A stretch of DNA of 32,973 nucleotides from contig JAILEU010000054.1 in NCBI GenBank assembly GCA_024697785.1, forward strand, positions 1 to 32,973, in the 5' to 3' direction. Under the pieces are notes generated by a model that was not told the origin of the DNA, searched no databases, and worked only from the letters and a program-made list of their open reading frames with translations. Numbering within the stretch: position 1 is the first letter of the stretch; each line of letters starts with the position of its first letter. The position numbers and the translations under genes were made by a program. This document shows, piece by piece, positions 1 through 30,626 of the stretch. Origin of the DNA: Bacteroidaceae bacterium (GTDB lineage: Bacteria > Bacteroidota > Bacteroidia > Bacteroidales > Bacteroidaceae).

Positions 1-315
1 AGGCGAGATGCAGACGTTCTCGCCCGGCTCAGCTGCCAAACAGAGCTCGCCAAAGAGTTTTTGGGCGAATTCGGTCCCCATTTGGGCGTAAGCCATCTGG
101 TTTTGGCTGGGCGCCAGGTGGAGCGGGACAGGATTCTGGCGATTGAAGATGCGGTCAACGATGCCCGTTCCTCGGATAATAGGCTCTTCGGGCGTTTCCT
201 GCTTGTCCGTAGGATGGGTGATTTCATCAATGATGGTATTGATGGGGTTGTTCTCGTTGCAGCCGCAGAACATCAAAGCTGCAAGCAAGGCGAGAGTGAA
301 AAGGGGCTTTTTCAT
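1..315 (-). CDS. Serpin-family lipoprotein, N-terminal part (truncated by window edge)
   Basis: Minus-strand frame from ATG at 313-315: MKKPLFTLALLAALMFCGCNENNPINTI...QMAYAQMGTEFAQKLFGELCLAAEPGENVCISP; lipobox FCGC and serpin-like N-terminal motif FAxKLFxEL...ENVxISP. Confidence 0.75.
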   Translation of the reverse strand, partial: MKKPLFTLALLAALMFCGCNENNPINTIIDEITHPTDKQETPEEPIIRGTGIVDRIFNRQNPVPLHLAPSQNQMAYAQMGTEFAQKLFGELCLAAEPGENVCISP

Positions 316-350
316 ATGGCTTTCGTTGTTTCGTTTAATTCGTATGGGTA

Positions 351-1610
351 TTATCTTATTTCAACATTCTTCTGGGGCAGCTTTTCATATAATCCCCAAA
401 AATAATAGGGAACAATGGCAGCGATAAATGCACCTTTTAGCTTCTTCATCGATAAGGTGACAACAATGGAATCGTCTGTTACGTGGATATATTGGTATTC
501 CAACGAATAACCAGCAGGTTTCATCACCATACCAATGAGCAGGGACTGTTCGTCGAAGTTAATCTCTGGTAACTCTTCATCCCCTGTATACAATTCCTCA
601 AATGCGGCCTGACTATTAACCAGATAGCATGTGTCTTTTTGAGAGGAAGTAAAAGATGGAGAAGGGAAGAAATCGCTCAAGATGGATTCTCCATAAGCTA
701 TCGTGGTGTTGAAAAAAGAGCGGATGTCCTCCGAAGGCGTAAGAGGAACTTGAAGGCCGGGATGCTCGACTGTGTATCCTTCCTGTACGATTTGGAACTG
801 CATGTGGCCTGTGGTGGTCTTGTCGTCGTTGAGGTTGAAGTCCAGGACGAAAAGGCGGATGAACACAGCGTTGGCAGGCTTGTTGTCTTCAGGGAGATCT
901 TCCGCATAGATGATGTAGCCGTGCAGCGGCTGTATGGGAACTCTGTCGCTCAAGCCATTAAGGGGAAGCTGTAAGGGGATGTCGTTCAGGCTCTTCATCT
1001 GGCCGAGGTCAACAATCTGTACGACGGAGTTGTTGCGATCAATGAAGAAGTTGCAGTCCTCGTCCATTTGCAGGTTGCATCTCTCGCCCAACGCCCAGGT
1101 CGTTTGTCCAGGATAGCCGTTCATGAAGGTGGTGGTGGTTCCTTTGGGGACGTTGGTGGCCTGCTGCCAGATTTCGTTCCAATCGACGAGGTCGGCTTTG
1201 TTGTCGTTCTTGGTGTAGGCGACGCCGTCCTTGATGGCGAAGCAGAAGATGCCTTGTTCGTTGATGTACAGCGTGTAGTTGCCGTTGGGGAAGAGCGAGA
1301 TGTTGATGCTGACCGACGGGGTGTTGACATACTTCAACGAGAAGAAGAACTCGGCAGCTTCCTGGTGCCAGATGGTGACGGTAAACGTAGAAGCCTTGTC
1401 GAGGGTGAGGAGAAGCCGGTTGTCCTCGATGGAAACGGTACAGACCGTTTCGTCGTGAGTGGTGTCCTCAGAGGTCATGTAGATGCGGTCGATGATGCCT
1501 CCAGCACGGATGAGGGGTTCTTCTGGGGTGTTACCTGGGTCAAAGGCGCCTTCGCAGCAGCAGAACATCAGAGCTGCAAGCATGGCGAGAGTGAAAAGGG
1601 GCTTTTTCAT
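351..1610 (-). CDS. Hypothetical lipoprotein (possibly DUF5036-like central region)
   Basis: Signal peptide MKKPLFTLAMLAALMFCCC at ATG 1608-1610, nearly identical to the upstream serpin gene; no catalytic motif recognised. Confidence 0.7.
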   Translation of the reverse strand: MKKPLFTLAMLAALMFCCCEGAFDPGNTPEEPLIRAGGIIDRIYMTSEDTTHDETVCTVSIEDNRLLLTLDKASTFTVTIWHQEAAEFFFSLKYVNTPSVSINISLFPNGNYTLYINEQGIFCFAIKDGVAYTKNDNKADLVDWNEIWQQATNVPKGTTTTFMNGYPGQTTWALGERCNLQMDEDCNFFIDRNNSVVQIVDLGQMKSLNDIPLQLPLNGLSDRVPIQPLHGYIIYAEDLPEDNKPANAVFIRLFVLDFNLNDDKTTTGHMQFQIVQEGYTVEHPGLQVPLTPSEDIRSFFNTTIAYGESILSDFFPSPSFTSSQKDTCYLVNSQAAFEELYTGDEELPEINFDEQSLLIGMVMKPAGYSLEYQYIHVTDDSIVVTLSMKKLKGAFIAAIVPYYFWGLYEKLPQKNVEIR

Positions 1611-1650
1611 TTCTGTGAGGTATTTAATTATCAATTATCCATTATCCATT

Positions 1651-1669
1651 ATCTTCAAATCTTGAAGAT
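1651..1669. terminator. Short hairpin ATCTTCAA-ATC-TTGAAGAT overlapping the 3' end of the TPR regulator gene
   Basis: Perfect 8-bp inverted repeat with 3-nt loop at the stop codon; terminator role is inference. Confidence 0.35.
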
Positions 1670-3226
1670 ACTCAGGTAGGGCTCGGCGAGCTTGGCGCGA
1701 AGGCGATGCTTGTGCGAGCGGATGGTGGTGTCGGTAACGCCTGTGCAGATGGTCTGCGTGTAGGTGGAGAAGCCGAGGCGGCAGAGGAGCAGGCAGGTGA
1801 GCTCAGAGTCGCTGAGCGTGGGGCTCTGCTGGCGCAGCTCGTCCACGATGGGACGGAAGATGCGGAACAGCTCCACCTGCAGGGCGGCGGTGCGCTCGGA
1901 GGAGAAGGCGTCAAAGCCGCGTGTGCGGCTCAGGTGGATGGCGCTGAGCTCGTCGTTCCACGGGCTTTGCATGAACTGGTTGATGCAGGCGCCCAGCTGC
2001 TCCTCGAAATAGAGGGTGCTGTTCTGGTCCTTGGCACGGCGGCTGCGGCGCAGGGCCGTCAGGGCGATGAGCGTGCCGCCCACGAGGGCGACGAGCAAGG
2101 CGGCCATCACGCTGTGGCGGGCAGACTGACGGCGATGGACTTCCGCTTCGTAGCTGCGCAGCACACCCGCCATGCGCAGCTGATCGACGGAGTGGGCAAT
2201 GGTCTCCTTGAGGCTGGCGTAATATTGGGCATGACCGAAAGCACTCTCGAACTGTCCGCTCAGCGAGTCGAGCGAGGCGAGGGCGCTGGCGGTCGAGGCT
2301 TCGAGGTAGAGATTGTTCGTCGCACCTTGGCAAAGGCGAAGATAGTGGAGGGCTGAGTCGGGCTGACCGAGGGCTTTGTATGCCTGCCCCTTTAAATAAT
2401 AAGGAAAGAGCTTGTCGTCGCCCGTGCGTAACGACTCGGCCAGCGAGGCGTAGGCGAGGGCATCGGCGGCGTTGCCCCGACGGCGCGTGATGATGGAGAG
2501 CTGCTCGGCGGCGAGGGCTGTGCCGATGGGGTTGTCGATGGCGCGGCTCAGGGCGAGCAACGTCACGTAGTTGTCGTAGGATGCGTCCCATTGCCCCTTG
2601 GCCATCTGGCATTTGGCGATGCCTTCGAGCGGCATGATCATGCGCAGGCTGTCGCCCACGCGGACAGCACAGTCGTAGGCCTGACGATACCACGTCTGCG
2701 ACTCGTCGAAGAGATGCTGGTTGAAGAGGTGGTCGGCGATGTTCTGCGACGTGCGGCGCAACATCACCCAGTCCCTAAGCCCACGGAAGCCGTCGGATGC
2801 AGGCAGATAGGCCTCGACGGCACGGAAGTCGTCGCCCAGGTCGCGGCAGACGCTTCCGAGATAGAACTGCGAGAGCGCACGCAGCTCCTTGTTCCTTCCC
2901 GGACGGGCGTAATACTCGACGGCCGTCAGGATGAGCGAGTCGGAGGTGTGGGGGATGAGGCATTTGTCCGCAGCCTGCGTGCGAAGGAGGGCGTAGAGGG
3001 CGGCCTCCCCCTTACCCCTCCTAAAGGAGGGGAGACCAGTGGACTCGGAAGCCCTTCCCTTTAGGGGAGGGTTGGGTGAGGCTATGCTCTCCAGCTCACT
3101 CAGGGCGCGAGCGGGGTCGGCGTTGATGTAGGAACGTATCTCGTTCAGCTGACGGCGGACATCGGAAGCTGTTGCGACAGACGTTGTCATCAACAGGGCG
3201 AAGAGGATAAAAACGACACGCTTCAT
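1655..3226 (-). CDS. TPR-containing membrane-anchored regulator with C-terminal HTH-like domain
   Basis: Signal peptide, TPR-like helices, TM segment VMAALLVALVGGTLIALTAL, C-terminal LSDSELTCLLLCRLGFSTYTQTICTGVTDTTIRSHKHRLRAKL (LuxR-like HTH). Confidence 0.8.
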   Translation of the reverse strand: MKRVVFILFALLMTTSVATASDVRRQLNEIRSYINADPARALSELESIASPNPPLKGRASESTGLPSFRRGKGEAALYALLRTQAADKCLIPHTSDSLILTAVEYYARPGRNKELRALSQFYLGSVCRDLGDDFRAVEAYLPASDGFRGLRDWVMLRRTSQNIADHLFNQHLFDESQTWYRQAYDCAVRVGDSLRMIMPLEGIAKCQMAKGQWDASYDNYVTLLALSRAIDNPIGTALAAEQLSIITRRRGNAADALAYASLAESLRTGDDKLFPYYLKGQAYKALGQPDSALHYLRLCQGATNNLYLEASTASALASLDSLSGQFESAFGHAQYYASLKETIAHSVDQLRMAGVLRSYEAEVHRRQSARHSVMAALLVALVGGTLIALTALRRSRRAKDQNSTLYFEEQLGACINQFMQSPWNDELSAIHLSRTRGFDAFSSERTAALQVELFRIFRPIVDELRQQSPTLSDSELTCLLLCRLGFSTYTQTICTGVTDTTIRSHKHRLRAKLAEPYLSIFKI

Positions 3227-3250
3227 GTGATTCTTTTTTCAAATTCGACG

Positions 3251-3258
3251 CAAAGATA
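3251..3258 (-). promoter_or_regulatory. Bacteroidetes-type -7 element (TATCTTTG) for the TPR regulator
   Basis: CAAAGATA on + strand = TATCTTTG on -, just upstream of ATG 3226; TTTG-like -33 about 24 nt further upstream. Confidence 0.55.
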
Positions 3259-3329
3259 GCGCCTTTTTGTCCGCTGTGCAAGCAAAAACCCGTTGCAAAA
3301 GCGTTGCAACGGGCGTGGCAAATGCGTTT

Positions 3330-4022
3330 TTATGGGGTGCTGAAGCAAAAGTGCTCTATGGAATCGGGCGGCAGGAGGGGATAGGGGATGGGCAGCCGGG
3401 GCTCGGCGGGAGGGAGGAGGGGTGTGACGGAGGCGGCGCCGGGGGCGAAGTCGGGTAGGACGCGGCGGGCACCGAGGTAGCGGGCCTGGTAGTAAGGTTC
3501 GCTGAGATGGGAGATGATGACGCCTGTGAGGGCGGCGTGGATGAAGGAGAACGACTTGCCGCCCGGGTCGGGGCCGATGTAGATGCCGACGTGGCCGGGA
3601 GTCTGCGAGATGCGCCGTCCGCTGAACACCACGATGTCGCCCCGCTGCAGGTGTTTGATGCCCTTTTTCACGGGACGTCCCTGACGCCACTGGCCGCCGG
3701 AGGAGTGGCTGAGCGAGTAGCCGAACTTGCCATAGACATAAGAGGTGAAGCCCGAACAGTCGAACGACGCAGGGCCACGAGCGGCGTAGCGGTAGGGCTT
3801 GCCTAAGGACTGACGGGCAAAGCCGATGATGCTGTCGGCCGTGGCTGCGGCACGCAGGGAATCGGGGCTGACGCCCCGCAGCGTCGAGCAGGCGGAAAGA
3901 GACAGCATAAAGGCAAAATGAAAAATGAAGAATGAAAAATAGAAGGAAAGCCTCCCCCGTCCCCTCCTGAAGGAGGGGGGATTGGTTAGGGGTGAGGGGT
4001 TGGGGGTGGGCTTAACTTCCAT
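3330..4022 (-). CDS. NlpC/P60-family cell-wall hydrolase lipoprotein
   Basis: FDCSGFTSYVYGKFG (catalytic Cys), RGDIVVFSG...PGHVGIYIG (His) motifs; lipobox LSAC. ATG at 4020-4022 (the track's first codon at 4028 is TTG). Confidence 0.85.
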   Translation of the reverse strand: MEVKPTPNPSPLTNPPSFRRGRGRLSFYFSFFIFHFAFMLSLSACSTLRGVSPDSLRAAATADSIIGFARQSLGKPYRYAARGPASFDCSGFTSYVYGKFGYSLSHSSGGQWRQGRPVKKGIKHLQRGDIVVFSGRRISQTPGHVGIYIGPDPGGKSFSFIHAALTGVIISHLSEPYYQARYLGARRVLPDFAPGAASVTPLLPPAEPRLPIPYPLLPPDSIEHFCFSTP

Positions 4023-4077
4023 TTTCAATAATGTAGTTCTCAGAGGACGTGTTCGTTAAACATTAAACCAATTATTT

Positions 4078-7969
<3,892 letters not shown>

Positions 7970-8006
7970 CCAAAAAACAGAATCTCCTGAACTTCCACAA
8001 AATAGG

Positions 8007-8720
8007 TCAGTTCCGCTGTAGATAGTAGGTCACTTGGCTGTCTCTTTCTCCCGTCAGGCCATCGTAGTCAGTCCCTTCATAAGAACTTAGATTCCAGGCT
8101 GGATAGCTCGTACTGATTGTCGCATATTGGACTATCTCCGAGAAGCTGTATGTGAGGCTCATTCTGTCGTAGCCATAGGGAAAGTCCGTGCTGGCAATGT
8201 TGTGTTCAGCGTTCTCGTCTTTCATCCAGGTGATGGTCATCTTCCGGTCTTCATATTCTTTTTTGAAAGCCTCGAAATAGGAGTCGGAGAAGAATAGGCG
8301 GACGTACATGACGCTATCGCTTGTGACGCCCCATAGGAATTCTTCCTTGAATGTATTGAAGGGGCGGTTATAAATGTTTGCGAACATGGGCGGCTGCCAA
8401 CTGCTGTCTTCTATTTGCTTGAGCGTACCCCATCCGTCGTCACGGAATGTCCAGAGAATCCGGTTTTCGTAGGTGTCCCCGCCTTGGATGTTGTCGAGGA
8501 TGTTGCCATCGGCATCTTTGACAACGGTTTGGGTCACGTTGCTGGTGGCATATTGCAGCCACTCGCCGACGAAAGGTTGGATGTACTTACGGTATTCGAG
8601 AGTGCTGCCTTCTAACGAAGAATGTTTTTCGTAATCGAACAAAGGGCTATCGTCATAGCTCGAACATGCGGCAAGGATGGAGGCGAGGATAAGCAGGAAG
8701 GAGATGTCTTTCTTTTTCAT
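8007..8720 (-). CDS. Hypothetical lipoprotein
   Basis: MKKKDISFLLILASILAACSS lipoprotein signal (lipobox LAAC); 237 aa. Confidence 0.75.
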   Translation of the reverse strand: MKKKDISFLLILASILAACSSYDDSPLFDYEKHSSLEGSTLEYRKYIQPFVGEWLQYATSNVTQTVVKDADGNILDNIQGGDTYENRILWTFRDDGWGTLKQIEDSSWQPPMFANIYNRPFNTFKEEFLWGVTSDSVMYVRLFFSDSYFEAFKKEYEDRKMTITWMKDENAEHNIASTDFPYGYDRMSLTYSFSEIVQYATISTSYPAWNLSSYEGTDYDGLTGERDSQVTYYLQRN

Positions 8721-8908
8721 ATGGCTTCAATCTTTATCATTAAACACGATTTCTTAATTCTTAGTAGTTCAGGAGTTCAGGAGTTCAGTAGTTCAGACAA
8801 TAGCTTTGCATGTTGATTTTCATCTTTAAAACTTTTTTTCTTAACTCTTAACTCTTAATTCTTAACTATTAAAACACTAAACACAAAACTCTAAACTCCT
8901 GACAATCG

Positions 8909-10210
8909 TCAGAGCGTATATTGCAGGGTGAGGCGTAGCGAGGGCGCCCAGGGATGGCCGGTGCGCGAGGTGGTGAGGCGCGTCTCGGTGAGATGATAGC
9001 TGAGGCCCGGCTGGAAGGCAAGGCTGACATGATGGCCGAGGTCGTAGCCGACGGTCATCTGTCCGCCGACGGCAAACTGCCAAGGACGTTCGTCCTGTCG
9101 CCATGTGCCGAGGCGGGCGCCAAGGCATCGTTCGACGGTGGTGCCGGCGCTGAGTGTGAGGGATAGCGCGCCCCGTCCGGCGAATCGCCACCCGGCGTAG
9201 AGCGGCAGGCCGAGGTACTGAACGCGCTGTTCGCGTGTGTTGGCAGGGGTGATGACCTGCGACGATAGGGTAGTCCACACGAGGCCTGTCTCCAGCACGA
9301 GGCGTTCGATGGGCTCGTAGGATATGCTGAGGCCCACGCTCAGCTCGGGACGGTGGTTGAAGACGTAGTTGCCTATGGTTGCGTAGGGGTTACTGGCGAA
9401 TGAAGGACCCTTCGCCGCAGGTGCGGCCATGGGGCGGCTGGAGTAGTAGTAATTGCCGTTCATGAGGGCCAGTGCTCCCGGCATGACGGAGGTGGTGCCG
9501 CCGCCAGCGCCACCACCCGGGATGCCGAAGGTGATGCGTCCGCGGCTCCGGCTCCGGGAAGCCTCCCCCGCCCCCTCCTGAAGGAGGGGGGACTGATTAC
9601 TTCCGCTCGCTGCTCCCTTCCCTTTAGGGGAGGGCTGGGGTGAGGCTTCTCCTCCGCTCGCTGCTCCCTTCCCTATAGTGGAGGGCTGGGGTGAGGCTTC
9701 TCCTCCGCTCGCGGCTCCCTTCCCTTTAGGGGAGGGCTGGGGTGAGGCTTCGGGCTGGGTTGAGGCTTCTCTGATGGCTGAAGTCATATTCTGCGCTACA
9801 ACGTTCGGGAGGATTTGCAATCCGGCCGCGTCGAGTAGAGGGATTTGCAATCCCTCGCCTGTAGCCTCCCCCGTCCCCTTCTGAAGGAAAGCCTCCCCCG
9901 TCCCCTCCTGAAGGAAAGCCTCCCCCGACTCCTCCTGAAGGAGGGGGGACTGATTACTTCCGCTGGTCTCCCCTCCTTTAGGAGGGGTAAGGGGGAGGCT
10001 ATCTGGTATGGCAAAGAACACCACCGCCAGCACGGCAGCTGCCGCAGCCGTCCATACGGCTACGCGCTTCCAGGGCACCGCTACGGGCGAGTGGCCGCCG
10101 GTGCCGCCCAGCTCCTTCTCGAGCCGTGCCCATCCCCCGTCAGGAGGCGTCATCTGCGCCCCCTTCATGCGGTCGCGCAGCCCATCCGTCCAATCTTTCT
10201 TCTGCTTCAT
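8909..10210 (-). CDS. Outer-membrane beta-barrel protein with N-terminal anti-sigma-like cytoplasmic segment and TM helix; low-complexity repeat-derived linker
   Basis: N-term MKQKKDWTDGLRDRMKGAQMTPPDGGWARLEKEL + TM VAVWTAAAAAVLAVVFFAI; C-terminal barrel-like strands (ELSVGLSISYEPIERLVLETGLVWTTLSSQ...LRLTLQYTL). Confidence 0.75.
   Translation of the reverse strand: MKQKKDWTDGLRDRMKGAQMTPPDGGWARLEKELGGTGGHSPVAVPWKRVAVWTAAAAAVLAVVFFAIPDSLPLTPPKGGETSGSNQSPLLQEESGEAFLQEGTGEAFLQKGTGEATGEGLQIPLLDAAGLQILPNVVAQNMTSAIREASTQPEASPQPSPKGKGAASGGEASPQPSTIGKGAASGGEASPQPSPKGKGAASGSNQSPLLQEGAGEASRSRSRGRITFGIPGGGAGGGTTSVMPGALALMNGNYYYSSRPMAAPAAKGPSFASNPYATIGNYVFNHRPELSVGLSISYEPIERLVLETGLVWTTLSSQVITPANTREQRVQYLGLPLYAGWRFAGRGALSLTLSAGTTVERCLGARLGTWRQDERPWQFAVGGQMTVGYDLGHHVSLAFQPGLSYHLTETRLTTSRTGHPWAPSLRLTLQYTL
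9562..9998. repeat. Cluster of GC-rich palindromic elements (GCCTCcccc...CCTCCTGAAGGAGG...CCCTTTAGGG...gggGAGGC), several tandem or partial copies
   Basis: Repeated CCCCTCCTGAAGGAGGGG and CCCTTCCCTTTAGGGGAGGG hairpins; translated in frame as EASPQPSPKGKGAASG / SNQSPLLQEGSGEAFLQEG. Confidence 0.9.
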
Positions 10211-10427
10211 AAATGGTTTAACGTTTAATGTTTAACGTTTAACGTTTAACGAACACGTCCTTTTGGTTAATGGTTAATGATTCATGGTTCATGGTTATCG
10301 TTTAACGAACACGTTCTCAGAACTATTTTTCTTAACTCTTAATTAAACTTCGTTTTTCTTCTGTCGCGACTCGGCATAGTTCAAACAAGTTTGAATCTGC
10401 TCTCGCTGCTCCATCGGTTCTTAACTC

Positions 10428-11000
10428 TTAACTACAATAAATTCCTAATTCCTCATTGCTCCAAAGGAGCCTGATGCGTGCGGCCAGCAGGGCTTTGGCG
10501 CGGGCAAGCTGCGAGGCCGACGTCCGTTCCTTGATGCCCAGCAGGCGGGCAATCTCCTTGTGCGAACAGCCGTCGATGCAGTAGAGGTTGAACACCACGC
10601 GATAGCCCTCGGGCAGCTCGCCGATGAGGCGGAAGAGGTCGTCGTCGCTGATGCGGTCGATGTCGTCCGCTGTGGGCTCGGGCACGTCCTTCAGCTCAGT
10701 CTCTGTCTCGTCTATCGGGACGAAGGCCAGCGTCCGACGCTTCCTGAGGCTGTCGATGGCCACGTTCCTCGCCACGCGCTCCATCCACACGCCCAGGCTG
10801 CCCTCGCCCTGCCAGCGGAAACGGTTCAGACCGCCGAAGATGTTCAGGAATGCATCGTGCAGCCAGTCCTCCGCCTGCTCCCGCTCTGAGGCATAGCGCC
10901 GGCATACCGCCATCAGCCGCGGCGAGTAGGCTCTATACAGCTCCGCACGAGCAGCATTGTCACCCTTCTTGCATGCTTCCACCAAATACGCTTCACTCAT
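10428..11000 (-). CDS. ECF RNA polymerase sigma factor
   Basis: Region 2 AEDWLHDAFLNIFGGLNRFRWQGEGSLGVWMERVARNVAIDSLRKRR; region 4 LPEGYRVVFNLYCIDGCSHKEIARLLGIKERTSASQLARAKALL. Confidence 0.9.
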   Translation of the reverse strand: MSEAYLVEACKKGDNAARAELYRAYSPRLMAVCRRYASEREQAEDWLHDAFLNIFGGLNRFRWQGEGSLGVWMERVARNVAIDSLRKRRTLAFVPIDETETELKDVPEPTADDIDRISDDDLFRLIGELPEGYRVVFNLYCIDGCSHKEIARLLGIKERTSASQLARAKALLAARIRLLWSNEELGIYCS

Positions 11001-11146
11001 CCATTGCGAGGTTGGATATCATTCTCTTCTTTTCCTATTACACTCATAAAACGTACGAGACCCGAAAATACTGCATGGGAAGACGAGATATTTTCCGGCA
11101 AAATTAAAAAAAATCTGAAAAACCTCCAATTTTCCTATCTTTTGTG

Positions 11147-11154
11147 TATTTTTG
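11147..11154 (+). promoter_or_regulatory. Candidate -7 element TATTTTTG upstream of ddh
   Basis: Matches TAnnTTTG 27 nt upstream of the ATG; no good -33 seen. Confidence 0.4.
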
Positions 11155-11181
11155 CAGCCAAATTAATAGGTACTTAGTAAT

Positions 11182-12078
11182 ATGAAAAAGATTCGTGCCG
11201 CCGTCATTGGTTACGGCAACATTGGCAAGTATGCGCTCGAGGCGCTGCAGGTATCACCCGATTTCGAGCTGGCAGGCGTCGTCCGCCGTCAGGGCGACAA
11301 GGACCGTCCCGCCGAGCTGGCAGGCATCCCCGTCGTCGATAACGTGTCAAAGCTGGCGGACGTCGATGTCGCCATCCTCGCCACCCCCACCCGCAAGGTC
11401 GAGGAGTACGCCCTTGAGTGTCTCGCGCTGGGCATCCACACCGTCGACAGTTTCGACATCCACACCCTCATCCCCGCGCTTCGCCAGAGGCTGGGCGATG
11501 CTGCCCGCAAGGCCGGACGCGTCAGCATCATCAGCGCCGGCTGGGACCCGGGCAGCGACAGCATCGTCCGCGCCCTGCTCGAGGCCATCGCACCCAAGGG
11601 ACTCACCTACACCAACTTCGGTCCCGGCATGAGCATGGGCCATAGCGTCTGCGTCCGTTCGAAGGAGGGCGTGCGCGATGCCCTCTCCATGACCATCCCC
11701 AAGGGCGAGGGCGTACACCGCCGCATGGTCTATGTCGAGCTTGAGGAGGGTGCCAGCCTCGATGCCGTCGCCGCCGCCGTCAAGGCCGACCCCTACTTCG
11801 CGTCCGACGAGACGCACGTCTTCGCCGTCCCCAGCGTCGATGCCCTGCGCGACATGGGTCACGGCGTCAGCCTCACCCGCAAGGGCGTGAGCGGCACAAC
11901 GCAGAACCAGCGCTTCTGCTTCGACATGAGCATCAACAACCCCGCCCTCACCGGTCAGGTGCTTGTCTGCGCCGCCCGTGCCGCCATGCGCCAGCAGCCT
12001 GGCGCCTACACCATGATTGAGATTCCCGTCATCGACCTCCTCCCCGGCAGCCGCGAAGACTGGCTCCATCTGGTGTAA
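11182..12078 (+). CDS. ddh: meso-diaminopimelate D-dehydrogenase
   Basis: MKKIRAAVIGYGNIGKYALEAL Rossmann start; SFDIHTLIPALR, SAGWDPGSDSIVRALLEAIAPKGLTYTNFGPGMSMGHSVCVR, NPALTGQVLVCAARAAMR motifs typical of Ddh. Confidence 0.93.
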   Translation: MKKIRAAVIGYGNIGKYALEALQVSPDFELAGVVRRQGDKDRPAELAGIPVVDNVSKLADVDVAILATPTRKVEEYALECLALGIHTVDSFDIHTLIPALRQRLGDAARKAGRVSIISAGWDPGSDSIVRALLEAIAPKGLTYTNFGPGMSMGHSVCVRSKEGVRDALSMTIPKGEGVHRRMVYVELEEGASLDAVAAAVKADPYFASDETHVFAVPSVDALRDMGHGVSLTRKGVSGTTQNQRFCFDMSINNPALTGQVLVCAARAAMRQQPGAYTMIEIPVIDLLPGSREDWLHLV

Positions 12079-12160
12079 TTAGAATGAAGATTGAAAATTG
12101 AAGAATAATAATATGATGGAATTCTTCATTAAAAAAATCTTCAATTCTTAAAGTTGTGTC

Positions 12161-13603
12161 ATGAAGAAAGGGAAGATTCTTGTCGTTGACGACAACGCCA
12201 ACATCCGCAGCGCGCTCGAGCTCCTGCTGCCCGCCTACTTTGCCGAGGTGGAGCTGCTGCCGTCGCCCGCAGGGCTGCTGACGGCCGTCCAGAAGTTCCG
12301 CCCCGATGCTGTGCTGCTCGACATGAATTTTCATACCGACACCAACACCGGCGGCGAAGGACTCTTCTGGACAGGCGAGCTGAAGAAAGCCTATCCCCAT
12401 GTGCAGATTGTTCTCTTTACGGCATACGCCGACATCGCTCTGGCCGTCGAGGGCATGAAGCGCGGCGCGTTCGACTTCATCGTCAAGCCGTGGGAGAACG
12501 ACAAGCTCATTCAGACCCTGCGCGACGCCTGCGAAGCCTCACCCCAGCCCTCCCCTAAAGGGAAGGGAGCAGCGAGCGGAAGTAATCAGTCCCCCCTCCT
12601 TCAGGAGGGGTCGGGGGAGGCTTTCCTTCAGGAGGGGCAGGGCGAGGCTTCGGGCGAGGCACCGATGTTCTGGGGCAGCAGCGCGGCAATGGCCGAGATA
12701 CGGCGTACCGTGGCGAAAGTGGCACCGACGGATGCCACCATTCTCATTACGGGCGAGAACGGCACCGGCAAGGATGTGCTGGCCCGTGAAATCCATGCCC
12801 AAAGCCTGCGGTCGGCCGGGCCGATGGTGAGCGTCGATGCCGGTGCCATCCCCGAGACGCTGTTCGAAGGCGAGCTGTTCGGTCACGTCAAGGGCGCTTT
12901 CACCGATGCGCGCAACGACCATGCAGGCAAGTTTGAGCAGGCATCCGGCGGCACGTTGTTCCTCGACGAGATAGCCAACATCCCCCTCACGCTGCAGGCC
13001 AAGCTGCTGCGCGTGCTGCAGAGCCGCATGGTGACACGCGTGGGAGCCGAGGCACCTGTCCCCGTCGATATCCGCCTCATCTGCGCCACCAATGGAAACA
13101 TAGAGCAGATGGTGGGCGAGGGACGCTTCCGTGAGGACCTCTACTTCCGCATCAACACCGTCCGTCTCCATCTTCCGCCGCTGCGCGAACGGCCTGACGA
13201 CATCCTGCCTCTAGCCCGGCGATTCCTGAGGGTATATGCCCAGCGATACCATCGCGCCGTCACCGCCATCTCCGACGAGGCAGCCACCGCCTTGCGCCAC
13301 CATCCGTGGAACGGCAATATCCGCGAGCTGCAGAACACCATTGAAAAGGCCGTCATCCTTTCTGAAGGCAGCACGTTGCAGGTGGGTGACTTCCGTCTGC
13401 AGCGTCTCGCCTGCGGCGGGGCGAGGCGTCCCACCACGGACGACAAAGATCCGACGGCTGACCCGCTGACCATCAAGGAGTCTGAGGAACAGCTCATCCG
13501 CGATGCCATCGTCCGTTTAAACGGCAATCTCTCCTTGGTCGCCAGGGAACTGGGCATCAGCCGTCCCACCCTCTACAGCAAATTGAAAAAATACGACATA
13601 TAA
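12161..13603 (+). CDS. Sigma54-dependent response regulator (REC-AAA+-Fis HTH; NtrC family)
   Basis: REC KILVVDDNANIR / DAVLLDMNF; AAA+ GENGTGKDVLAREIH, GAFTDA (sigma54-contact GAFTGA-like), FLDEIANIPL; C-term LSLVARELGISRPTLYSKLKKYDI. Confidence 0.95.
   Translation: MKKGKILVVDDNANIRSALELLLPAYFAEVELLPSPAGLLTAVQKFRPDAVLLDMNFHTDTNTGGEGLFWTGELKKAYPHVQIVLFTAYADIALAVEGMKRGAFDFIVKPWENDKLIQTLRDACEASPQPSPKGKGAASGSNQSPLLQEGSGEAFLQEGQGEASGEAPMFWGSSAAMAEIRRTVAKVAPTDATILITGENGTGKDVLAREIHAQSLRSAGPMVSVDAGAIPETLFEGELFGHVKGAFTDARNDHAGKFEQASGGTLFLDEIANIPLTLQAKLLRVLQSRMVTRVGAEAPVPVDIRLICATNGNIEQMVGEGRFREDLYFRINTVRLHLPPLRERPDDILPLARRFLRVYAQRYHRAVTAISDEAATALRHHPWNGNIRELQNTIEKAVILSEGSTLQVGDFRLQRLACGGARRPTTDDKDPTADPLTIKESEEQLIRDAIVRLNGNLSLVARELGISRPTLYSKLKKYDI
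12536..12660 (+). repeat. Palindromic element inserted in frame in the response regulator REC-AAA linker
   Basis: gcctcaccccagccctcccctaaagggaagggagcagcgagcggaagtaatcagtcccccctccttcaggagggg..., same sequence as in the 8909-10210 gene on its coding strand. Confidence 0.9.
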
Positions 13604-13637
13604 TTTTATTGACTATTTGACGATTTACTTTTTTTTC

Positions 13638-13800
13638 GTTTAACGTTTAACGTTTAATGTTTAACGAACACGTCTGGCGCCTTCGGCGCAATTGATAATT
13701 GATAATTGAAAATTGATAATTATCCATGGTCCATTGTCAATTGTCAATTAACGAAGTTATCTCTAACCCCTAACCCCTAACCCCTAACCTCTAATTTTTA
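13638..13800. repeat. Composite intergenic repeat block A (TTTAACG heptamers, GCGCCTTCGGCGC hairpin, AATTGAT heptamers, CTAACCCC octamers)
   Basis: Near-identical modules recur at 18350-18600. Confidence 0.9.
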
Positions 13801-13805
13801 AAAAG

Positions 13806-14827: not shown

Positions 14828-14981
14828 AACGTTTTCGTTAAGCCAAATGACCAAAGCAAAGCTCGCTTTACTTTGGCATGGCGAGAAAAAGAAGGATGAA
14901 ATCCAACGTTTTCGTTAAGCCAAATGACCAAAGCAAAGCTCGCTTTACTTTGGCATGGCGAGAAAACGAAGGATGAAATCC
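14828..14981. repeat. Two tandem copies of a 77-bp unit with internal hairpin
   Basis: aacgttttcgttaagccaaatgaccaaagcaaagctcgctttactttggcatggcgagaaaa(a/c)gaaggatgaaatcc starting at 14828 and 14905. Confidence 0.95.
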
Positions 14982-15033
14982 AACTAAGCCTATAAACCTT
15001 TTTTTATAGGCATCGTTTTTGTATTGTTTGAGT

Positions 15034-15127
15034 ATTTTTATAAACACGGGCCGCGTTTATATAAACAGGGGCCCTGTTTATATAAACAGGGGCGGCGTTT
15101 ATATAAACAGGGCCCCTGTTTATAAAA
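15034..15127. repeat. 21-bp-period array of GTTTATATAAAC palindromes
   Basis: Exact GTTTATATAAAC at 15055, 15076, 15097; degenerate copies at 15034 and 15118; spacers aggggccct/aggggcggc/agggcccct. Confidence 0.95.
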
Positions 15128-15213
15128 TATCTCCTACTTCTGCAAAATAGGGAAGTCTTTACCGCTTTTCCCTCCCGCTTTTGCTCCATCCAGGCACTAT
15201 GCCCGGATGGAAT

Positions 15214-15252
15214 TGTAAAGTTTCTTTACATCGACTGTAAAGTTTCTTTACA
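15214..15252 (+). promoter_or_regulatory. Two identical 17-bp palindromes TGTAAAGTTTCTTTACA (candidate response-regulator enhancer sites)
   Basis: 15214-15230 and 15236-15252, 22 bp apart, about 75-110 bp upstream of the sigma54 promoter. Confidence 0.75.
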
Positions 15253-15306
15253 CTTTTCGCAAAGGCTGTTTTTCTTATGTGATAGATAACCAATCATTTG
15301 TGTTTG

Positions 15307-15322
15307 TGGCACGGACTTTGCT
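15307..15322 (+). promoter_or_regulatory. Sigma54 (-24/-12) promoter TGGCACGGACTTTGCT
   Basis: Matches consensus TGGCACGRNNNTTGCW at every defined position; 27 nt before ATG 15349. Confidence 0.88.
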
Positions 15323-15348
15323 TTATGATAGGCAGAACAGTCAAAGAA

Positions 15349-16947
15349 ATGTCACAGATGATAAACGTCAACTTCTCCTATTTTAAAAAGGTGCCCATTG
15401 TAGTGCTTATAGGGTTGTTCGGCTATGCAGGAACAGCTACAGCGGTTTCTCAAACGGCCGCAGCCGACACTATATCCGAGGCACCCATGTCGCTCCACGA
15501 TTGCATGGCATATGCCGTCCGACACAGCACGAAGATGCGCACGTCTGCTGCCGACCGCAGCGACGAGCGGGCACAGCGCCGTCAGGCCATCATGCAGGCC
15601 TTCACCCCCAGCGTCAGCGCCAGCACCTATGCCTATAACAACTATGGGCGTAACATCGACCCTGAGACCAACACCTATAACACCGTCACCTCGTTTCACA
15701 ACGGTTACTCGGTGAGCGCCAGCCTGACGCTGTTCGACGGTTTTCAGGCGCTGGACAATCTGCGCATAGCCACCACCACTATGAAGATGGGCATCAGCCG
15801 CGACGAGCAGACGCGCGACGCAATCTGCCTGGCTACGATGGAGGCCTATTACAACGTGCTCTACTATACCTCCCTCGCCCAAGTCCTCACCCGTCAGGTT
15901 GAGACCGCCGAGGCTATGCTGCGCAAGGCCGTGCGTGAGGAGGAGCTGGGGCAGAAAAGCCATGCCGACGTGGTGCAGATGGAGGCTGAGCTGGCTAAGA
16001 AACAGTTTGACTTGACGAGCGCCACCAATCAGCATGTCAATGCCATGCTGACGCTGAAAGACGTGATGTATTGGCCCACAGGGAAAGAATTGGAAATCAG
16101 GAAAGAAAAATCGGTTAGTGGTGAGGGGTTAGGCGCCTTCGGCGCAATTGATAATTATCAATTGTCAATTATCAACCGACGCCAAGCCGAGAGCCATCAA
16201 GCTTGCTTGAACCGACGCCAAGATGAGAGCCATCAAGCTTGCTTGAACCGACGCCAAGATGAGAGCCATCAAGCTTGCTTGAATGGCCGAGGCGCGAAGG
16301 AGGAAGACGAAGTCAATGGCCAAGGTGCGAAGGAGGAAGACAAAGTCAATTATCAATTGCTTTCATCCCTTCCCGCAGCGGCAATAGCGCGAGGTACGCT
16401 GGAGAATGCCCGCGCTGCCCTTCACACCGCCCGTTGGGCATACGCTCCTTCGTTGGGACTCTACGGCGGATGGTCCACCAACTATTTCACCTATCCCGGT
16501 ATGGCCGGTTACGTGCCCACACCCTTCCGCGAGCAGTTCCGGAACAACAGCGGCGAGTACATCCAGCTCTCCATGAGCATCCCCATCTTCGACCGCTTTT
16601 CGCGCCGCACGACTCTCCGCCTACGCCGCAATGCCGTCGAGCGGGCCGAAGCGCAGTACGAGCAGACCATGCGCGACATCGAGAACGAAGTCTCCCGTGC
16701 TGTCAACGACCGCGACGGCGCCGCTTCTGCCTACCGCCAGGCTGTTCGCCGCGCCGAGGTGGAAGAGGAGGCCTACACCCTTTCACGCCGCCAGTACGAG
16801 CAGGGACTTATTTCTCCTCTCGACTATCAGACTGCTTCGCAGGCCTACCTCAACGCCCAGGCTGAGCGGCTTGGTGCCCAGTTCAGGTATCGGCTTAAAC
16901 AAAGCGTTGTTCGATATTACAACGGCACACCTTATCTGGAGCAATGA
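15349..16947 (+). CDS. TolC-family outer membrane efflux protein (start moved downstream of the sigma54 promoter)
   Basis: MSLHDCMAYAVRHSTKMRTS, YNVLYYTSLAQVLTRQVETAEAML, VEEEAYTLSRRQYEQGLISPLDYQTASQAYLNAQAERLGAQFRY. The ORF-track start at 15298 precedes the promoter, so ATG 15349 or 15358 is more plausible. Confidence 0.9.
   Translation: MSQMINVNFSYFKKVPIVVLIGLFGYAGTATAVSQTAAADTISEAPMSLHDCMAYAVRHSTKMRTSAADRSDERAQRRQAIMQAFTPSVSASTYAYNNYGRNIDPETNTYNTVTSFHNGYSVSASLTLFDGFQALDNLRIATTTMKMGISRDEQTRDAICLATMEAYYNVLYYTSLAQVLTRQVETAEAMLRKAVREEELGQKSHADVVQMEAELAKKQFDLTSATNQHVNAMLTLKDVMYWPTGKELEIRKEKSVSGEGLGAFGAIDNYQLSIINRRQAESHQACLNRRQDESHQACLNRRQDESHQACLNGRGAKEEDEVNGQGAKEEDKVNYQLLSSLPAAAIARGTLENARAALHTARWAYAPSLGLYGGWSTNYFTYPGMAGYVPTPFREQFRNNSGEYIQLSMSIPIFDRFSRRTTLRLRRNAVERAEAQYEQTMRDIENEVSRAVNDRDGAASAYRQAVRRAEVEEEAYTLSRRQYEQGLISPLDYQTASQAYLNAQAERLGAQFRYRLKQSVVRYYNGTPYLEQ
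16176..16349 (+). repeat. In-frame tandem repeats inside the TolC gene: 3 x 36 bp then 2 x 33 bp
   Basis: ccgacgccaag..gagagccatcaagcttgcttgaa at 16176, 16212, 16248; tggccraggYgcgaaggaggaagacRaagtcaa at 16284, 16317. Confidence 0.95.
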
Positions 16948-17088
16948 ACAGAGTGCGGGTTTCAGCGTCCGCCGTGGACGCATCGGTTTTTGCCTTGGTT
17001 ACGATGGGGCGGCGTGGCTGCTGAAACCCTCTTTTTCACAAAACTGCAACTTTTTAGGTAATGAAAAACGTCTATAATATATTATACA

Positions 17089-18348
17089 ATGGATAGAGTA
17101 ATAGAAAAGAAGAAAGGCCTGAGGGCGGCCTTCACGCGCAGAGCCCTCCCGTGGTGGGGACTGGGCCTGCTGGCCGTGCTGGTCGTGTGGGCTGTGGCCC
17201 GTCCCAGCCGAAGCACCCTCAGAGTGAAAAGCGACAGCATCATCGTCGGCGACGTCAGGAGCGGCGTGTTTAACGACTACATCCGTCTGGGCGGCACCGT
17301 GCAGCCTATGACGTCCGTTCAAATCAGCCCCACCGAGGGCGGCATCGTGGAGCGTATCGTGGCCGAGGAGGGTTCGATGGTTAAGGCAGGCGACGTCATC
17401 CTCGAACTCAGCAACGAGGGGCTCGACCTGCAGATTCTCAACTCAGAGGCCGAGCTGGCCGAAAAGGAGAACATCCTGCGCAACACGCTCATCTCCATGG
17501 AGCAGCAGCGGCTCACCGTCCGTCAGGAGCGCCTTCAACTTCAGATTGACGTGCGCCGCACGCGCCGTGCCTACGAGTCTAAGAAGCAGCTCTACGACGA
17601 GCAGCTCATCGCCCGCGAAGACTATCTGAAAGCCGAGGAAGACTACCTGCTGGCCCGCGACCGTCTGGAGCTCGTCACCGAGCGCGAGGCGCAGGACAGC
17701 CTCTACCGCAGCGTCGAGGTGGCCCGTATGCGCGAGAGCCTCGACAACATGCGCACCAACATGCTGATGATACGCCGCCGTAAGGAGAACCTCAGCGTCA
17801 AGGCGCCCATCAGCGGCGAGCTGGGCCTGCTCAGCGCCGTCCTCGGCCAGAGCATTGCCGCCGGCACGAAGGTGGGACAGATCAACGACCTGAAGAACTA
17901 CAAGATTGAGGCCCAGATAGACGAGCACTACATCGACCGCGTCACCCCCGGCCTGGAGGCCACCTTCGAGCGTCAGGGCGACCGCTTCTCCGCCCTCCTC
18001 GTCAAGGTCTATCCCGAGGTGCGCGAGGGCAAGTTCAAGGCCGACTTCCGCTTCAGCGGCCCGCAGCCAGACAACATCCGCACCGGCCAGACCTACTACC
18101 TCAACGTCCAGCTCGGGGCCAGCACCGAGGCTGTCATCATCCCCAAGGGCAGCTTTTTCCAGCAGACGGGCGGCAAGTGGATCTACGTCCTCACTCCCGA
18201 CGGCAGCCGCGCCGTCCGCCGCGACATACGCATCGGACGTCAGAACCCCCAGAGCTACGAGGTGTTCGATGGCCTCGCCCCCGGCGAACGCATCATCCTC
18301 TCCAGCTACGACACCTTTGGCGACAACGAAGTGCTGATAATTAAATAA
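17089..18348 (+). CDS. HlyD/MacA-type periplasmic adaptor (membrane fusion protein)
   Basis: N-terminal TM, GGIVERIVAEEGSMVKAGDVILELSN biotinyl-lipoyl-like motif, coiled coil, SVKAPISGELGLLSAVLGQSIAAGTKVGQI. Confidence 0.92.
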   Translation: MDRVIEKKKGLRAAFTRRALPWWGLGLLAVLVVWAVARPSRSTLRVKSDSIIVGDVRSGVFNDYIRLGGTVQPMTSVQISPTEGGIVERIVAEEGSMVKAGDVILELSNEGLDLQILNSEAELAEKENILRNTLISMEQQRLTVRQERLQLQIDVRRTRRAYESKKQLYDEQLIAREDYLKAEEDYLLARDRLELVTEREAQDSLYRSVEVARMRESLDNMRTNMLMIRRRKENLSVKAPISGELGLLSAVLGQSIAAGTKVGQINDLKNYKIEAQIDEHYIDRVTPGLEATFERQGDRFSALLVKVYPEVREGKFKADFRFSGPQPDNIRTGQTYYLNVQLGASTEAVIIPKGSFFQQTGGKWIYVLTPDGSRAVRRDIRIGRQNPQSYEVFDGLAPGERIILSSYDTFGDNEVLIIK

Positions 18349-18349
18349 A

Positions 18350-18600
18350 GTTTAACGTTTAATGTTTAACGTTTAACGAACACGTCTGGCGCCTTCGGCG
18401 CAATTGATAATTGGCTTCGCCTTCCTCCTTCGCACCTCGGCCATTCAAGCAAGCTTGATGGCTCTCGGTTTGGCGTCGGTTGATAATTGAAAATTGATAA
18501 TTATCCATGGTCCATTGTCAATTGTCAATTAACGAAGTTATCTCTAACCCCTAACCTCTAACCCCTAACCTAATTTCTAATTTCTAATTCCTAATTCCTA
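18350..18600. repeat. Composite intergenic repeat block B (as block A plus an inserted ~69-bp element at 18413-18481)
   Basis: Shares TTTAACGAACACGTCTGGCGCCTTCGGCGCAATTGATAATTG and ...ATTATCCATGGTCCATTGTCAATTGTCAATTAACGAAGTTATCTCTAACCCC with block A; the insert is the reverse complement of the TolC-internal repeat. Confidence 0.9.
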
Positions 18601-18605
18601 ATTCT

Positions 18606-20954
18606 TTGAAATCCTATCTTACCTTCCTCCGCCGTAATTGGCTTTATACGCTCATCGAGATGTTCGGGCTCTCCGTAGCGTTGGGGTTCGTCGTGCTGCT
18701 GGCATCGTATGCCCGAACCGAGTTCAGCGTCGGCCGCAGGCAGCCTCTGTCAAAACAACTCTACGCCGTCGGCACAGGCTCCTTCCTCGGCATGACGCTC
18801 GGCACGGCCGAGGCGTTCTACGGCAGCATCCCCGAGATAACGGGCTGGACGCGCATCGCCCGTTACAACGGCATCGGCTATGACATCACCGTCGGTGGCG
18901 ACTTCTACGAGACGCGGGCTGCCACCATCGACACCAATTTCTTCCAGTATTTCGACTACGCCCTCGAAGGCTGCGACCGCCGCCGCGTGCTGGCCAGTCC
19001 CGACGAGGTCATCCTTTCCCGCTCGTTCGCCCGCAAGGTGTTCGGCACGGACGACCCCGTTGGCAAGACCATCGAGAGTGCCGTGGACGGTCGTCTCGTA
19101 GTGGCAGGCGTTGTCGACGACTTCGGTCCAGCGGACGTCTTTCAGCCCTTCGACATCTTTCTCGGTATGGACAAGGCACTCCTCCAGGAAATGGACAACT
19201 TTGGCATGGTGCAGACCTTCGTCACGCTGGCCGACGGCACCGACACCGAGAGCCTGAACAGCAAGCTCCTCGCCACCTACATGGACTACTGGAAAGACTG
19301 GTACAAGGCCGATGGCTCGGACGGCTCGTTCCTGTGGGGTTCGTCGTTGACGAGGCTGGACGAAATCTACTTCTCGTCGTTTGACGACGGGGGTGATAAC
19401 GTTGTCCGTAAGGGCGACAAGCGCACCGTCCATGTGCTGCTCGTCGTGGCGCTGGTGCTGCTCGTGTCTGCCGTGTTCAACTACATCAACCTCACCGTGG
19501 CACAGACGGGCAAACGGGCCAAGGAGATGGCCACGCGCCGTCTGCTGGGGCAGCAGCAGAGTGGCATCGTGCTGCGCTATCTGGGCGAGTCGCTCTTCTT
19601 CACCACACTCTGCTTCGTCATCGGCATCGTGCTGGCGGTGGCGGCGAAGCCGTTATTCGAACGGCTGTTTACGTCGTCGGAGATAGTCCTGAAGCCCGAC
19701 TTTCGCGTGACCGCCGTCGCTGTGGCTCTGCTGGCGGTGGTGGCGCTCGTCTCGGGTCTGTTGCCTGCTGCCTTCATCGCGCGTTTCCAGCCCATCCACG
19801 TGGTGAAGGGCGAGTTCCGCTTCCGTTCGAAGCTGGTGTTCAGCCGCGTGTTCATCGTCCTGCAGAACGTCATCAGCACGGTACTTGTCGCCGTCAGCCT
19901 GACGATGGCGCTCCAGATGCACCACCTCGCCACGCTGCCCACGGGCTACCGCACGGACGGCATCCTCTCCGTGTCGGCCGCGTCCATCGGCTATACCTAC
20001 GACAAGCAGTCCATCCTGCGCGAGCGGCTGCTGGCCCTGCCGCAGGTGGAGGCTGTGGGGCTGGCGGCGCAGGTTCCCATGCGCACCGGTTTCGACGGCG
20101 TCCACGTTGAGGGTGAGAAGCAGTCGTGGGTTCGCCCGTCGCATTTAGACAGCACGGCGTTCCACATGCTCGGCCTTGAGGTGGTGGAGCGCTACAGCGA
20201 GCCGCTGCCGGGCATGTTCTGGGTGACGGAGGAGACGCGCGACCGCTATGGTATCACGCCCGGCCATCCCTGGTTCGGTACGATGGACGGACAGCCGGAG
20301 CGCGAGGTCTGCGGCGTCATCCGCGACTTCCGCAGCGGCACGCCCATGGAGTCGCCCATGGACGACAGCCACAGCGTGGTGAAGGTGCTCGACACCCGCC
20401 TCTGGGTCTATAACCATCTGGTGCAGGTGAAGGGCGACCGCCGCGAGGCCATCGAGGCCGTGCGCCGCGTCTGCCGCGAGGTGAACGAGGAGCTGACGGG
20501 GCTGCCGAAGGAGATGGAGGTCACCTACGTCGATGACTACCTCCGCGACAGCCTGACGGGCAGCCGCCGCGCTATTACGCTCGTGCTCGTCTTCATGGGC
20601 ATCGCCCTCGTCATCTCCGCCCTCGGCCTGCTGGCCATGTCCATCTACTACACCGGTCAGCAGGCGCGTCAGATAGCGCTGCGCAAGGTGTTCGGCGCCG
20701 AGGTGGGCGCGGCGTCGTGGCAGCTGGCGCGGGGCTTTGTCGTGATGGCGGCCGTGGCCGTCGTCGTGGCCATGCCGTTGGCCGTGTGGGCCATGACCTT
20801 CTATCTGGAGGGCTTCTACAACCGCATCGCCACGCCGTGGTGGGTCGTTCCCGTGGCTGCGCTGTTTACCTTCGTTGTGGCCTTTGTCTCCGTCATCTCT
20901 CAGATTTTGCATATAGCCTTGGAAAATCCTGTTAAAACCTTAAAAACCGAATAA
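18606..20954 (+). CDS. FtsX/MacB-type ABC permease (MacB_PCD + FtsX)
   Basis: Repeated FtsX TM motifs: NYINLTVAQTGKRAKEMATRRLLGQQ, QQARQIALRKVFGAEVGAA, NPVKTLKTE C-terminus; TTG start directly after repeat block. Confidence 0.9.
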   Translation: MKSYLTFLRRNWLYTLIEMFGLSVALGFVVLLASYARTEFSVGRRQPLSKQLYAVGTGSFLGMTLGTAEAFYGSIPEITGWTRIARYNGIGYDITVGGDFYETRAATIDTNFFQYFDYALEGCDRRRVLASPDEVILSRSFARKVFGTDDPVGKTIESAVDGRLVVAGVVDDFGPADVFQPFDIFLGMDKALLQEMDNFGMVQTFVTLADGTDTESLNSKLLATYMDYWKDWYKADGSDGSFLWGSSLTRLDEIYFSSFDDGGDNVVRKGDKRTVHVLLVVALVLLVSAVFNYINLTVAQTGKRAKEMATRRLLGQQQSGIVLRYLGESLFFTTLCFVIGIVLAVAAKPLFERLFTSSEIVLKPDFRVTAVAVALLAVVALVSGLLPAAFIARFQPIHVVKGEFRFRSKLVFSRVFIVLQNVISTVLVAVSLTMALQMHHLATLPTGYRTDGILSVSAASIGYTYDKQSILRERLLALPQVEAVGLAAQVPMRTGFDGVHVEGEKQSWVRPSHLDSTAFHMLGLEVVERYSEPLPGMFWVTEETRDRYGITPGHPWFGTMDGQPEREVCGVIRDFRSGTPMESPMDDSHSVVKVLDTRLWVYNHLVQVKGDRREAIEAVRRVCREVNEELTGLPKEMEVTYVDDYLRDSLTGSRRAITLVLVFMGIALVISALGLLAMSIYYTGQQARQIALRKVFGAEVGAASWQLARGFVVMAAVAVVVAMPLAVWAMTFYLEGFYNRIATPWWVVPVAALFTFVVAFVSVISQILHIALENPVKTLKTE

Positions 20955-20957
20955 GCA

Positions 20958-23393: not shown

Positions 23394-23446
23394 TCATTCA
23401 GAAAATAATAAAAAAAACAGTATAACCTATTTAAAAACAAACAGCA

Positions 23447-24127
<681 letters not shown>

Positions 24128-24208
24128 AGGTAAACCTTCATGGATAATGGATAATTATCAATTATCAATTTTCAATTTTCAATTGCGCCGAAGGGCGCCT
24201 AAGTTATC

Positions 24209-26611: not shown

Positions 26612-26773
26612 ATAAACTGGTTTAACGGAGATGGTTTAAGGTTTAACGTTTAAGGTTTAACGTTTAACGAGGCTGGCGCTGGTGAAATCGAAGGACGTGT
26701 TCGTTAAACATTAAACGCTAAACATTAAACAAGAATCCGAAGGACGTGTTCGTTAAACATTAAACATAAGAAA

Positions 26774-29173: not shown

Positions 29174-29389
29174 TGAGGCTGGCCCGATTGTTGGGCTGTT
29201 GACTAAATGATAAAGTGCATCTGCTATACAGCGAAATTATACTATCCTTTTTAATTGTGTGTGATGCACTCGAGATTCCCGCCGCCTGCGAAGGTCGCGG
29301 GAATCATGCTTCCGAAGCTTCAGTTTTTTGTGCAATAAATACACCGTATTGCATAAAAAAGCATGTTTTAGTGCAATAGACATTGAAAA

Positions 29390-29503
29390 GTGAAGAAAAA
29401 GCGGGGAACGTGCGACAAGTTGTTCATCGTAACGAACGACGATGAGCGGGTGATAGAGAAAGACGGTTATACGATAAACGTTGTTCCGTTTATGAAGTTC
29501 TGA
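29390..29503 (+). CDS. Candidate small ORF, 37 aa (GTG start)
   Basis: VKKKRGTCDKLFIVTNDDERVIEKDGYTINVVPFMKF*; ends 7 nt before the left 73-bp element. Confidence 0.25.
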   Translation: MKKKRGTCDKLFIVTNDDERVIEKDGYTINVVPFMKF

Positions 29504-29510
29504 CCGCTTT

Positions 29511-29583
29511 GTGACGGGTTGCGAAGGGGCGTTTCCTATAAGAAAGTGGCGTTTGCTGCGCGGTTTGGTTTTCAACCCGTCAC
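29511..29583 (+). repeat. 73-bp palindrome-ended element, left copy of an inverted pair
   Basis: GTGACGGGTTG...GTTTGCTGCGCGGTTT...TTTTCAACCCGTCAC; gapless alignment by eye to the reverse complement of 32060-32132, 58/73 identical. Confidence 0.93.
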
Positions 29584-29596
29584 AAAACGGGGGGCG

Positions 29597-29758
29597 TTTT
29601 TTAATGAAGAATGAAAAATGAAGAATGAAGAATAAATAGCTTTGCCAGCGGAGGAGTCGGCAGAGGAAAGGGAACTTTTCATGCAGGACATTTTATTTTT
29701 CATTCTTCATTTTCATTCTTTATTTTTCATTCTTCATTTTTCATTCTTCATTAAAAAA
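29597..29758. repeat. 31-bp perfect inverted repeat of the AATGAAG/AATGAAA heptamer family
   Basis: TTTTTTAATGAAGAATGAAAAATGAAGAATG (29597-29627) vs its reverse complement at 29728-29758. Confidence 0.95.
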
Positions 29759-29801
29759 AACCTTCATTCTTCAATCTTCAATTTTCAATCTTTTTAAGTG
29801 T

Positions 29802-30479: not shown

Positions 30480-30546
30480 GTGGTTTAAGGGTTTTTATGG
30501 GTTGAGAATAGGATTCCGTGTCGCCTATTTCGTCTTTTCTCATTGT

Positions 30547-30626
30547 CCAAAGCCGTTGGGAAACGTTTCCTAACCCGTTGGGACACGTTACCCAACCGCT
30601 TGGGATGGCTTTCCCAACGGCTTTGG
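30547..30626. repeat. Nested inverted/direct repeats (CCGTTGGGA family) in the HU/VirE intergenic region
   Basis: 17-bp perfect inverted repeat CCAAAGCCGTTGGGAAA (30547-30563)/TTTCCCAACGGCTTTGG (30610-30626), with CCCGTTGGGA, TTACCCAACCGCTTGGGA between. Confidence 0.93.

Follow-up and report, generated by a model that had tools for sequence, protein, structure and literature searches.

The window, that is, the whole stretch of 32,973 nucleotides analysed here, contains on its minus strand (1655–3226) the gene of a 523-amino-acid TPR regulator, for which the ORF, Pfam TPR matches and a predicted model indicate a signal peptide, TPRs and a C-terminal domain, together with a likely membrane segment. 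The ORF is uninterrupted from 1655 to 3226 and encloses an 80-bp REPIN-like palindromic element (3003–3082, minus strand), which codes for residues 49–75 (ASPNPPLKGRASESTGLPSFRRGKGEA) and is delimited by its sequence and translation, by repeat matches and by its absence from orthologs. The element's sequence on the coding (minus) strand is GCCTCACCCAACCCTCCCCTAAAGGGAAGGG / CTTCCGAGTCCACTGGTCT / CCCCTCCTTTAGGAGGGGTAAGGGGGAGGC (31 + 19 + 30 nt), corresponding to two inverted hairpin halves with a 19-nt spacer between them (3033–3051). Sequence and family consensus resolve the left half (3052–3082) into a head, GCCTCACCC, and a hairpin, CCCTCCCCTAAAGGGAAGGG, and the inverted right half (3003–3032) into a hairpin, CCCCTCCTTTAGGAGGGG, and a tail, TAAGGGGGAGGC. 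As single-stranded DNA the two halves pair with each other to form a single long hairpin (z about −2.1, equalled by 3 to 8 of 200 shuffles). The first-pass annotation had described both the element, with its GCCTC/GAGGC inverted ends and two hairpins, and its in-frame position inside the regulator, and on both points sequence, coordinates and the intact ORF bear it out. It is close to certain that a dispersed palindrome has been placed in frame within this TPR gene, and from the sequence we infer that the element is translated.

In the AlphaFold model of the host protein residues 48–70 appear as coil with pLDDT below 50, flanked by helices at 38–49 and 72–86. Since the model as a whole scores poorly (mean pLDDT 60.8, six sequences), it serves only to show that the element block is low-confidence coil. 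The block is predicted to be a disordered loop, rich in P, G and K, that links the first two TPR helices, where it is expected to be tolerated as a flexible linker; any gain through altered sensing would be hypothetical.

The source genome (G000) is a 3.24-Mb rumen Bacteroidaceae MAG of 201 contigs; among named genomes, rumen Bacteroidales/Bacteroidaceae MAGs such as UBA1189 and RGIG6839 stand closest to it. With 50 BLAST matches in its own genome (E<=0.001) and 92 hits of a family model built from 16 copies, the element is not a chance palindrome. The 92 hits overlap, as a palindrome can match on both strands, and stand for about 50 separate copies that are full or nearly so. The model also finds the family in relatives (73 hits in G003, 58 in G017, 22 in G012 and 21 in G009), with at least one hit in 18 of the 19 genus genomes, and of 151 genomes from the bacterial family, 37 contain weaker relatives of the repeat. 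Of the traits that mark a MITE (terminal inverted repeats, target-site duplication, a parent transposon), inverted ends are present in the family consensus; GTAG or CGTC adjoins the stem in some variants and is absent from others, including the window copy. The flanks inspected show no consistent target-site duplication, the window has no Rfam match, and searches of open-licence papers yielded no description of such elements for Prevotella, Bacteroidetes or rumen bacteria.

To determine how the copies relate to reading frames, we applied a codon score trained on the window genes to both flanks of 51 copies in the source genome. Strictly in frame, with both flanks coding in one frame and no stop codon in the element, were 21 copies, which is a lower bound and a conservative count, since the window element itself is excluded only for its low-scoring upstream (N-terminal) flank. 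Clear gene breakage was found in none of the 51 copies; two have phase-discordant coding flanks, both at gene ends. Strand and phase are common to 17 of the 21 strict copies and differ in four. Of 11 representative copies, 10 are open in the common frame and far fewer in the other five frames, so that the shared orientation follows from stop codons, which usually leave one of six frames dependably open. Selection for a fixed orientation was dropped as an explanation, as stop-codon filtering accounts for it. The first-pass annotation had placed the family in three other genes of the window, each time in the same orientation relative to translation; the three genes were confirmed, but the orientation is only approximately shared, given the four deviating copies genome-wide and a chimeric copy at 9918–9999.

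The layout of two inverted hairpin units around a spacer, with its predicted single-hairpin fold, recalls REPINs, which are REP doublets and almost wholly extragenic (Bertels and Rainey, 2011, PMC3116915), and would suit a classical REPIN moved by a RAYT transposase. We regard this origin as decidedly improbable, because the RAYT domain (Y1 transposase, PF01797) is absent from the source genome and from the element-rich G003, G009 and G017 (genomes 85–89% complete) and because the intragenic share is high, with no fewer than 21 of 51 copies lying strictly within genes. The elements may also lack the constant tetranucleotide tag of REPINs.

The first of the three other genes encodes an NlpC/P60 lipoprotein, whose N-terminal region (SFRRGRGR) is coded by a degenerate copy (3950–4010, minus strand, a model hit); ortholog N-termini differ. 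Within 3900–4028, the hydrophobic part of its signal peptide (FYFSFFIFHFAF) is coded by a AATGAAAAATGAAGA repeat and the basic N-region by the GC palindrome. In the second gene (8909–10210), model hits on the minus strand reveal an array (about 9556–9999) that mixes full, partial and chimeric copies and lies within the linker of the encoded OMP/anti-sigma-like protein, including the copy at 9918–9999, a chimera of two like halves; in other species this linker contains other repeats. The third (12161–13603) encodes an NtrC-type regulator with a copy on the plus strand (12536–12621; model hit, Pfam) in the linker between the receiver and sigma-54 AAA+ domains, and the G009 gene has a diverged copy at the matching place. 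Absent from G009 are a 27-nt in-frame tandem duplication within this copy (12613–12639, plus strand) and, in the same gene, an unrelated 24-nt palindromic in-frame insertion (13402–13425, plus strand; RLACGGAR) flanked by GCGTC direct repeats.

Comparison with the syntenic region of G009 also exposed other repeats. Composite intergenic repeats at 13604–13805 (202 nt), 18387–18541 (155 nt) and 24137–24205 (69 nt) are absent there, the flanking genes being otherwise conserved. An outer-membrane efflux protein carries an in-frame tandem repeat of 36 nt (16174–16317), with three copies here versus one in G009, that recurs inverted in a downstream intergenic repeat (18400–18508). A 77-nt tandem duplication (14828–14981) and a 21-nt tandem repeat (15035–15139; TTTATATAAACAGGGGCCCTG) are both shorter or absent in G009. 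Arrays of 7- to 8-nt units (TTCAGGAG, GTTTAACG, TTGATAA, AATGAAA), often as inverted pairs, occupy 7757–7968, 8752–8823, 10196–10307, 12076–12140 and 29589–29790; AT-rich cassettes in coding linkers consist of arrays resembling them. Identity to G009 is about 70–90% in 1–12000 and about 91–98% in 15000–32300, an unevenness that suggests recombination or transfer.

According to Pfam, copies sit between domains or in loops. The element separates the lipoyl from the E3-binding domain in a 2-oxoacid dehydrogenase E2, precedes the C-terminal domain in two ABC-F ATPases, lies between GH2 domains and before the TIM barrel in a GH2 protein, between a membrane segment and the GT2 domain in a GT2 protein, between BT4734-like and DUF3987 domains in one protein, and in the central region of an MFS transporter. 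The E2 linker differs by species, being formed by the GC element in G000 (L129/L227, G000:C48), by a different long palindrome in G003 (L228) and by an unrelated AT-rich palindrome in G012 (L229). In three species hisD and hisC are one ORF, joined each time via a different palindromic repeat (G000: L143, G000:C64, element 4161–4246; G012: L218; G001: L226); five other species keep the hisD stop codon and a separate hisC. Since the E2, hisD/hisC and OMP/anti-sigma-like linkers also vary, the TPR loop is one case of a genus-wide habit.

The TPR gene belongs to a family with about 14 matches in the source genome, host included, and about 15–25 in each of the richest genomes. We read 52 TPR family paralogs and orthologs from six species, all of them MAGs represented by a single assembly each, in a sample that favoured N-terminal regions resembling the query. 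Their loop, which lies between the motifs LDS and ALYALL, is occupied by no fewer than five unrelated repeat families, each of them in frame. The cassette classes, which we assigned ourselves, include at least the window type, which may or may not enclose a nested palindrome; related GC types; PPPTPPVREGRLSPLRG; a long palindrome rich in AT that codes for EIEDSILKIEDYPAEEAGQK, and also its single arms; PNSSFLIPN types; and SEQRTVN/SDHCSL types. The loop is a repeat hotspot across a large TPR paralog family. In most classes the full-length cassettes have a fold far superior to that of their dinucleotide shuffles (e.g. z −5.8, −9.7 and −6.0), which is not true of single-arm cassettes and non-repeat loops. 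Arms of several classes are dispersed elsewhere; dispersal of cassettes C and of the nested palindrome was not demonstrated in the sample examined.

The expectation that homologs would lack exactly the block of about 27 amino acids held in part: the block is absent from all orthologs examined (G003, G009, G012, G016 and G017), but instead of an exact 27-residue gap the loop is filled differently. It comprises about 10 amino acids in G016, 17–18 non-repeat amino acids in G009 and G012, a shorter related palindrome in G003 and an unrelated AT-rich palindrome in G017. This alignment ruled out a simple model of an exact 27-residue insertion; given such varied contents at the site, the block fills a hypervariable loop or has taken its place.

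Turnover of the loop can be seen between G003 and G017. In the pairs L034/L035, L097/L106, L094/L110 and L098/L112 the distal DNA is 95–99% identical and the cassettes are unrelated, and unrelated cassette classes in ortholog pairs of these two genomes show 60–72% identity only; the pairs L095/L103 and L101/L105 have cassettes in common. As the genomes are MAGs and the cassettes short enough to confuse assemblers, such patterns might be attributed to contigs misjoined at paralog-shared repeats. This explanation is highly implausible, because a single misjoin swaps one flank, whereas here both flanks are orthologous (95–98% in the best pairs) and the cassette differs, and because the same alleles appear in independent assemblies and the frames stay open.

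Within genomes, paralogs of the same class are 93% identical in the cassette versus 80, 75 and 71% in the left, right and distal regions, the corresponding values for paralog pairs of different classes being 75, 73 and 71%. Flank identity is slightly higher beside shared cassettes (permutation P = 0.011 left, 0.023 right). The spacer CTTCCGAGTCCACTGGTCT is diagnostic of subtype A, and all of its 12 copies, from six genomes, lie in this same TPR loop, with none elsewhere in about 19 Mb; the full AT-rich cassette (type D) is likewise located in the TPR family at 11 of 11 places (at least 90% identity), though its arms are dispersed. These sequence patterns suggest that cassettes are, on balance, probably exchanged between paralogs. 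Cassette gene conversion operates in variable protein families such as bacterial surface antigens, where a short variable segment is swapped and the flanks are conserved. The TPR paralogs would be similar in exchanging a short variable segment between conserved flanks, and different in that their cassettes are dispersed palindromic repeats and reside in a regulator. The gene-conversion signal in the flanks is weak, and the sharp cassette edges would also fit precise insertion; cassettes may instead have entered afresh, in a targeted way.

The sharp edges would equally suit plain selfish insertion, in which repeats land at random, the loop is the most tolerant spot and each cassette arrives independently, with no exchange between paralogs. 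Many copies do reside in linkers of unrelated single-copy genes, and the E2 linker and hisD/hisC differ by species without any paralog donor. We nevertheless give this account a minority chance, as the full subtype A and D units are confined to the TPR loop and as the high cassette identity among paralogs and the raised flank identity argue against independent arrival. A further alternative holds that the loop evolved as a hypervariable region in a sensor family and that the cassettes are its working variants, much like antigenic or specificity cassettes. The single position shared by about 15–25 family matches in the richest genomes, and fast loop turnover next to conserved neighbouring genes, would agree with this; we think it unlikely, because the peptides are of low complexity and predicted to be disordered, because like turnover in the housekeeping linkers of E2 and hisDC makes diversifying selection unnecessary, and because no invertase or silent donor store came to light, if short of a systematic search.

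We therefore favour, as the likely explanation, a REPIN-like dispersed repeat read as a TPR loop, with landing filtered for linkers and cassettes passed among paralogs by short-tract recombination. Palindromes of several unrelated families would go on landing in the DNA of this genus, within genes as well as between them, and selection would retain only stop-free, frame-keeping copies in flexible linkers. In the TPR family, short-tract recombination via the conserved flanks would move cassettes between paralogs and probably between species. If cassettes are passed on in this way, the window gene most likely took its cassette over from a sister gene, fresh transposition being the less likely source. 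More tentatively, the genus may possess a form of recombination by which palindromes of many unrelated families take the place of flexible linkers instead of just interrupting them, entailing fast species-specific turnover, cassette exchange between paralogs and repeated fusion of neighbouring genes.

The closest parallels come from protein-coding palindromes. Rickettsia palindromic elements (RPEs) are dispersed, form several families and often lie in frame in unrelated genes, with a preferred frame (Ogata et al, 2000, 2002; reviewed in PMC10969869). The repeats described here resemble RPEs as a dispersed palindromic family with in-frame copies in unrelated functional genes and with insert-free homologs (TPR gene, hisD/hisC). 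The likeness drawn here is one of behaviour, and the host belongs to a different phylum (Bacteroidales); in contrast to RPEs, unrelated families here replace each other at one loop, paralogs share cassettes, and hisD and hisC fuse. Intragenic GTAG/CGTC REPs also include doublets coding for 20–30 amino acids inside ORFs, CGTC repeats occur in some Bacteroidetes, and recB carries different REPs at about the same site in two Xanthomonas species (Di Nocera et al, 2013, PMC3733652). Doublets coding within ORFs and different repeats at one site are thus common to both systems, but here same-site replacement spans a paralog family and six species and involves unrelated repeats, including long AT-rich palindromes. 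Since two REPIN features, extragenic placement and a RAYT, are missing here, we file the elements under protein-coding palindromes and call them neither RPE nor REPIN; by analogy, they appear to behave like RPEs, with cassette replacement and exchange in addition.

Protein-coding palindromes have so far been described chiefly as a Rickettsia curiosity, and their consequences are little understood. Here, sister species of one lineage let the process be followed, with housekeeping linkers and a regulator family rewritten and genes joined, which provides a natural experiment on the origin of linkers, insertions and gene fusions. It also calls for caution, in that linker sequence in these genomes tells little of protein ancestry.
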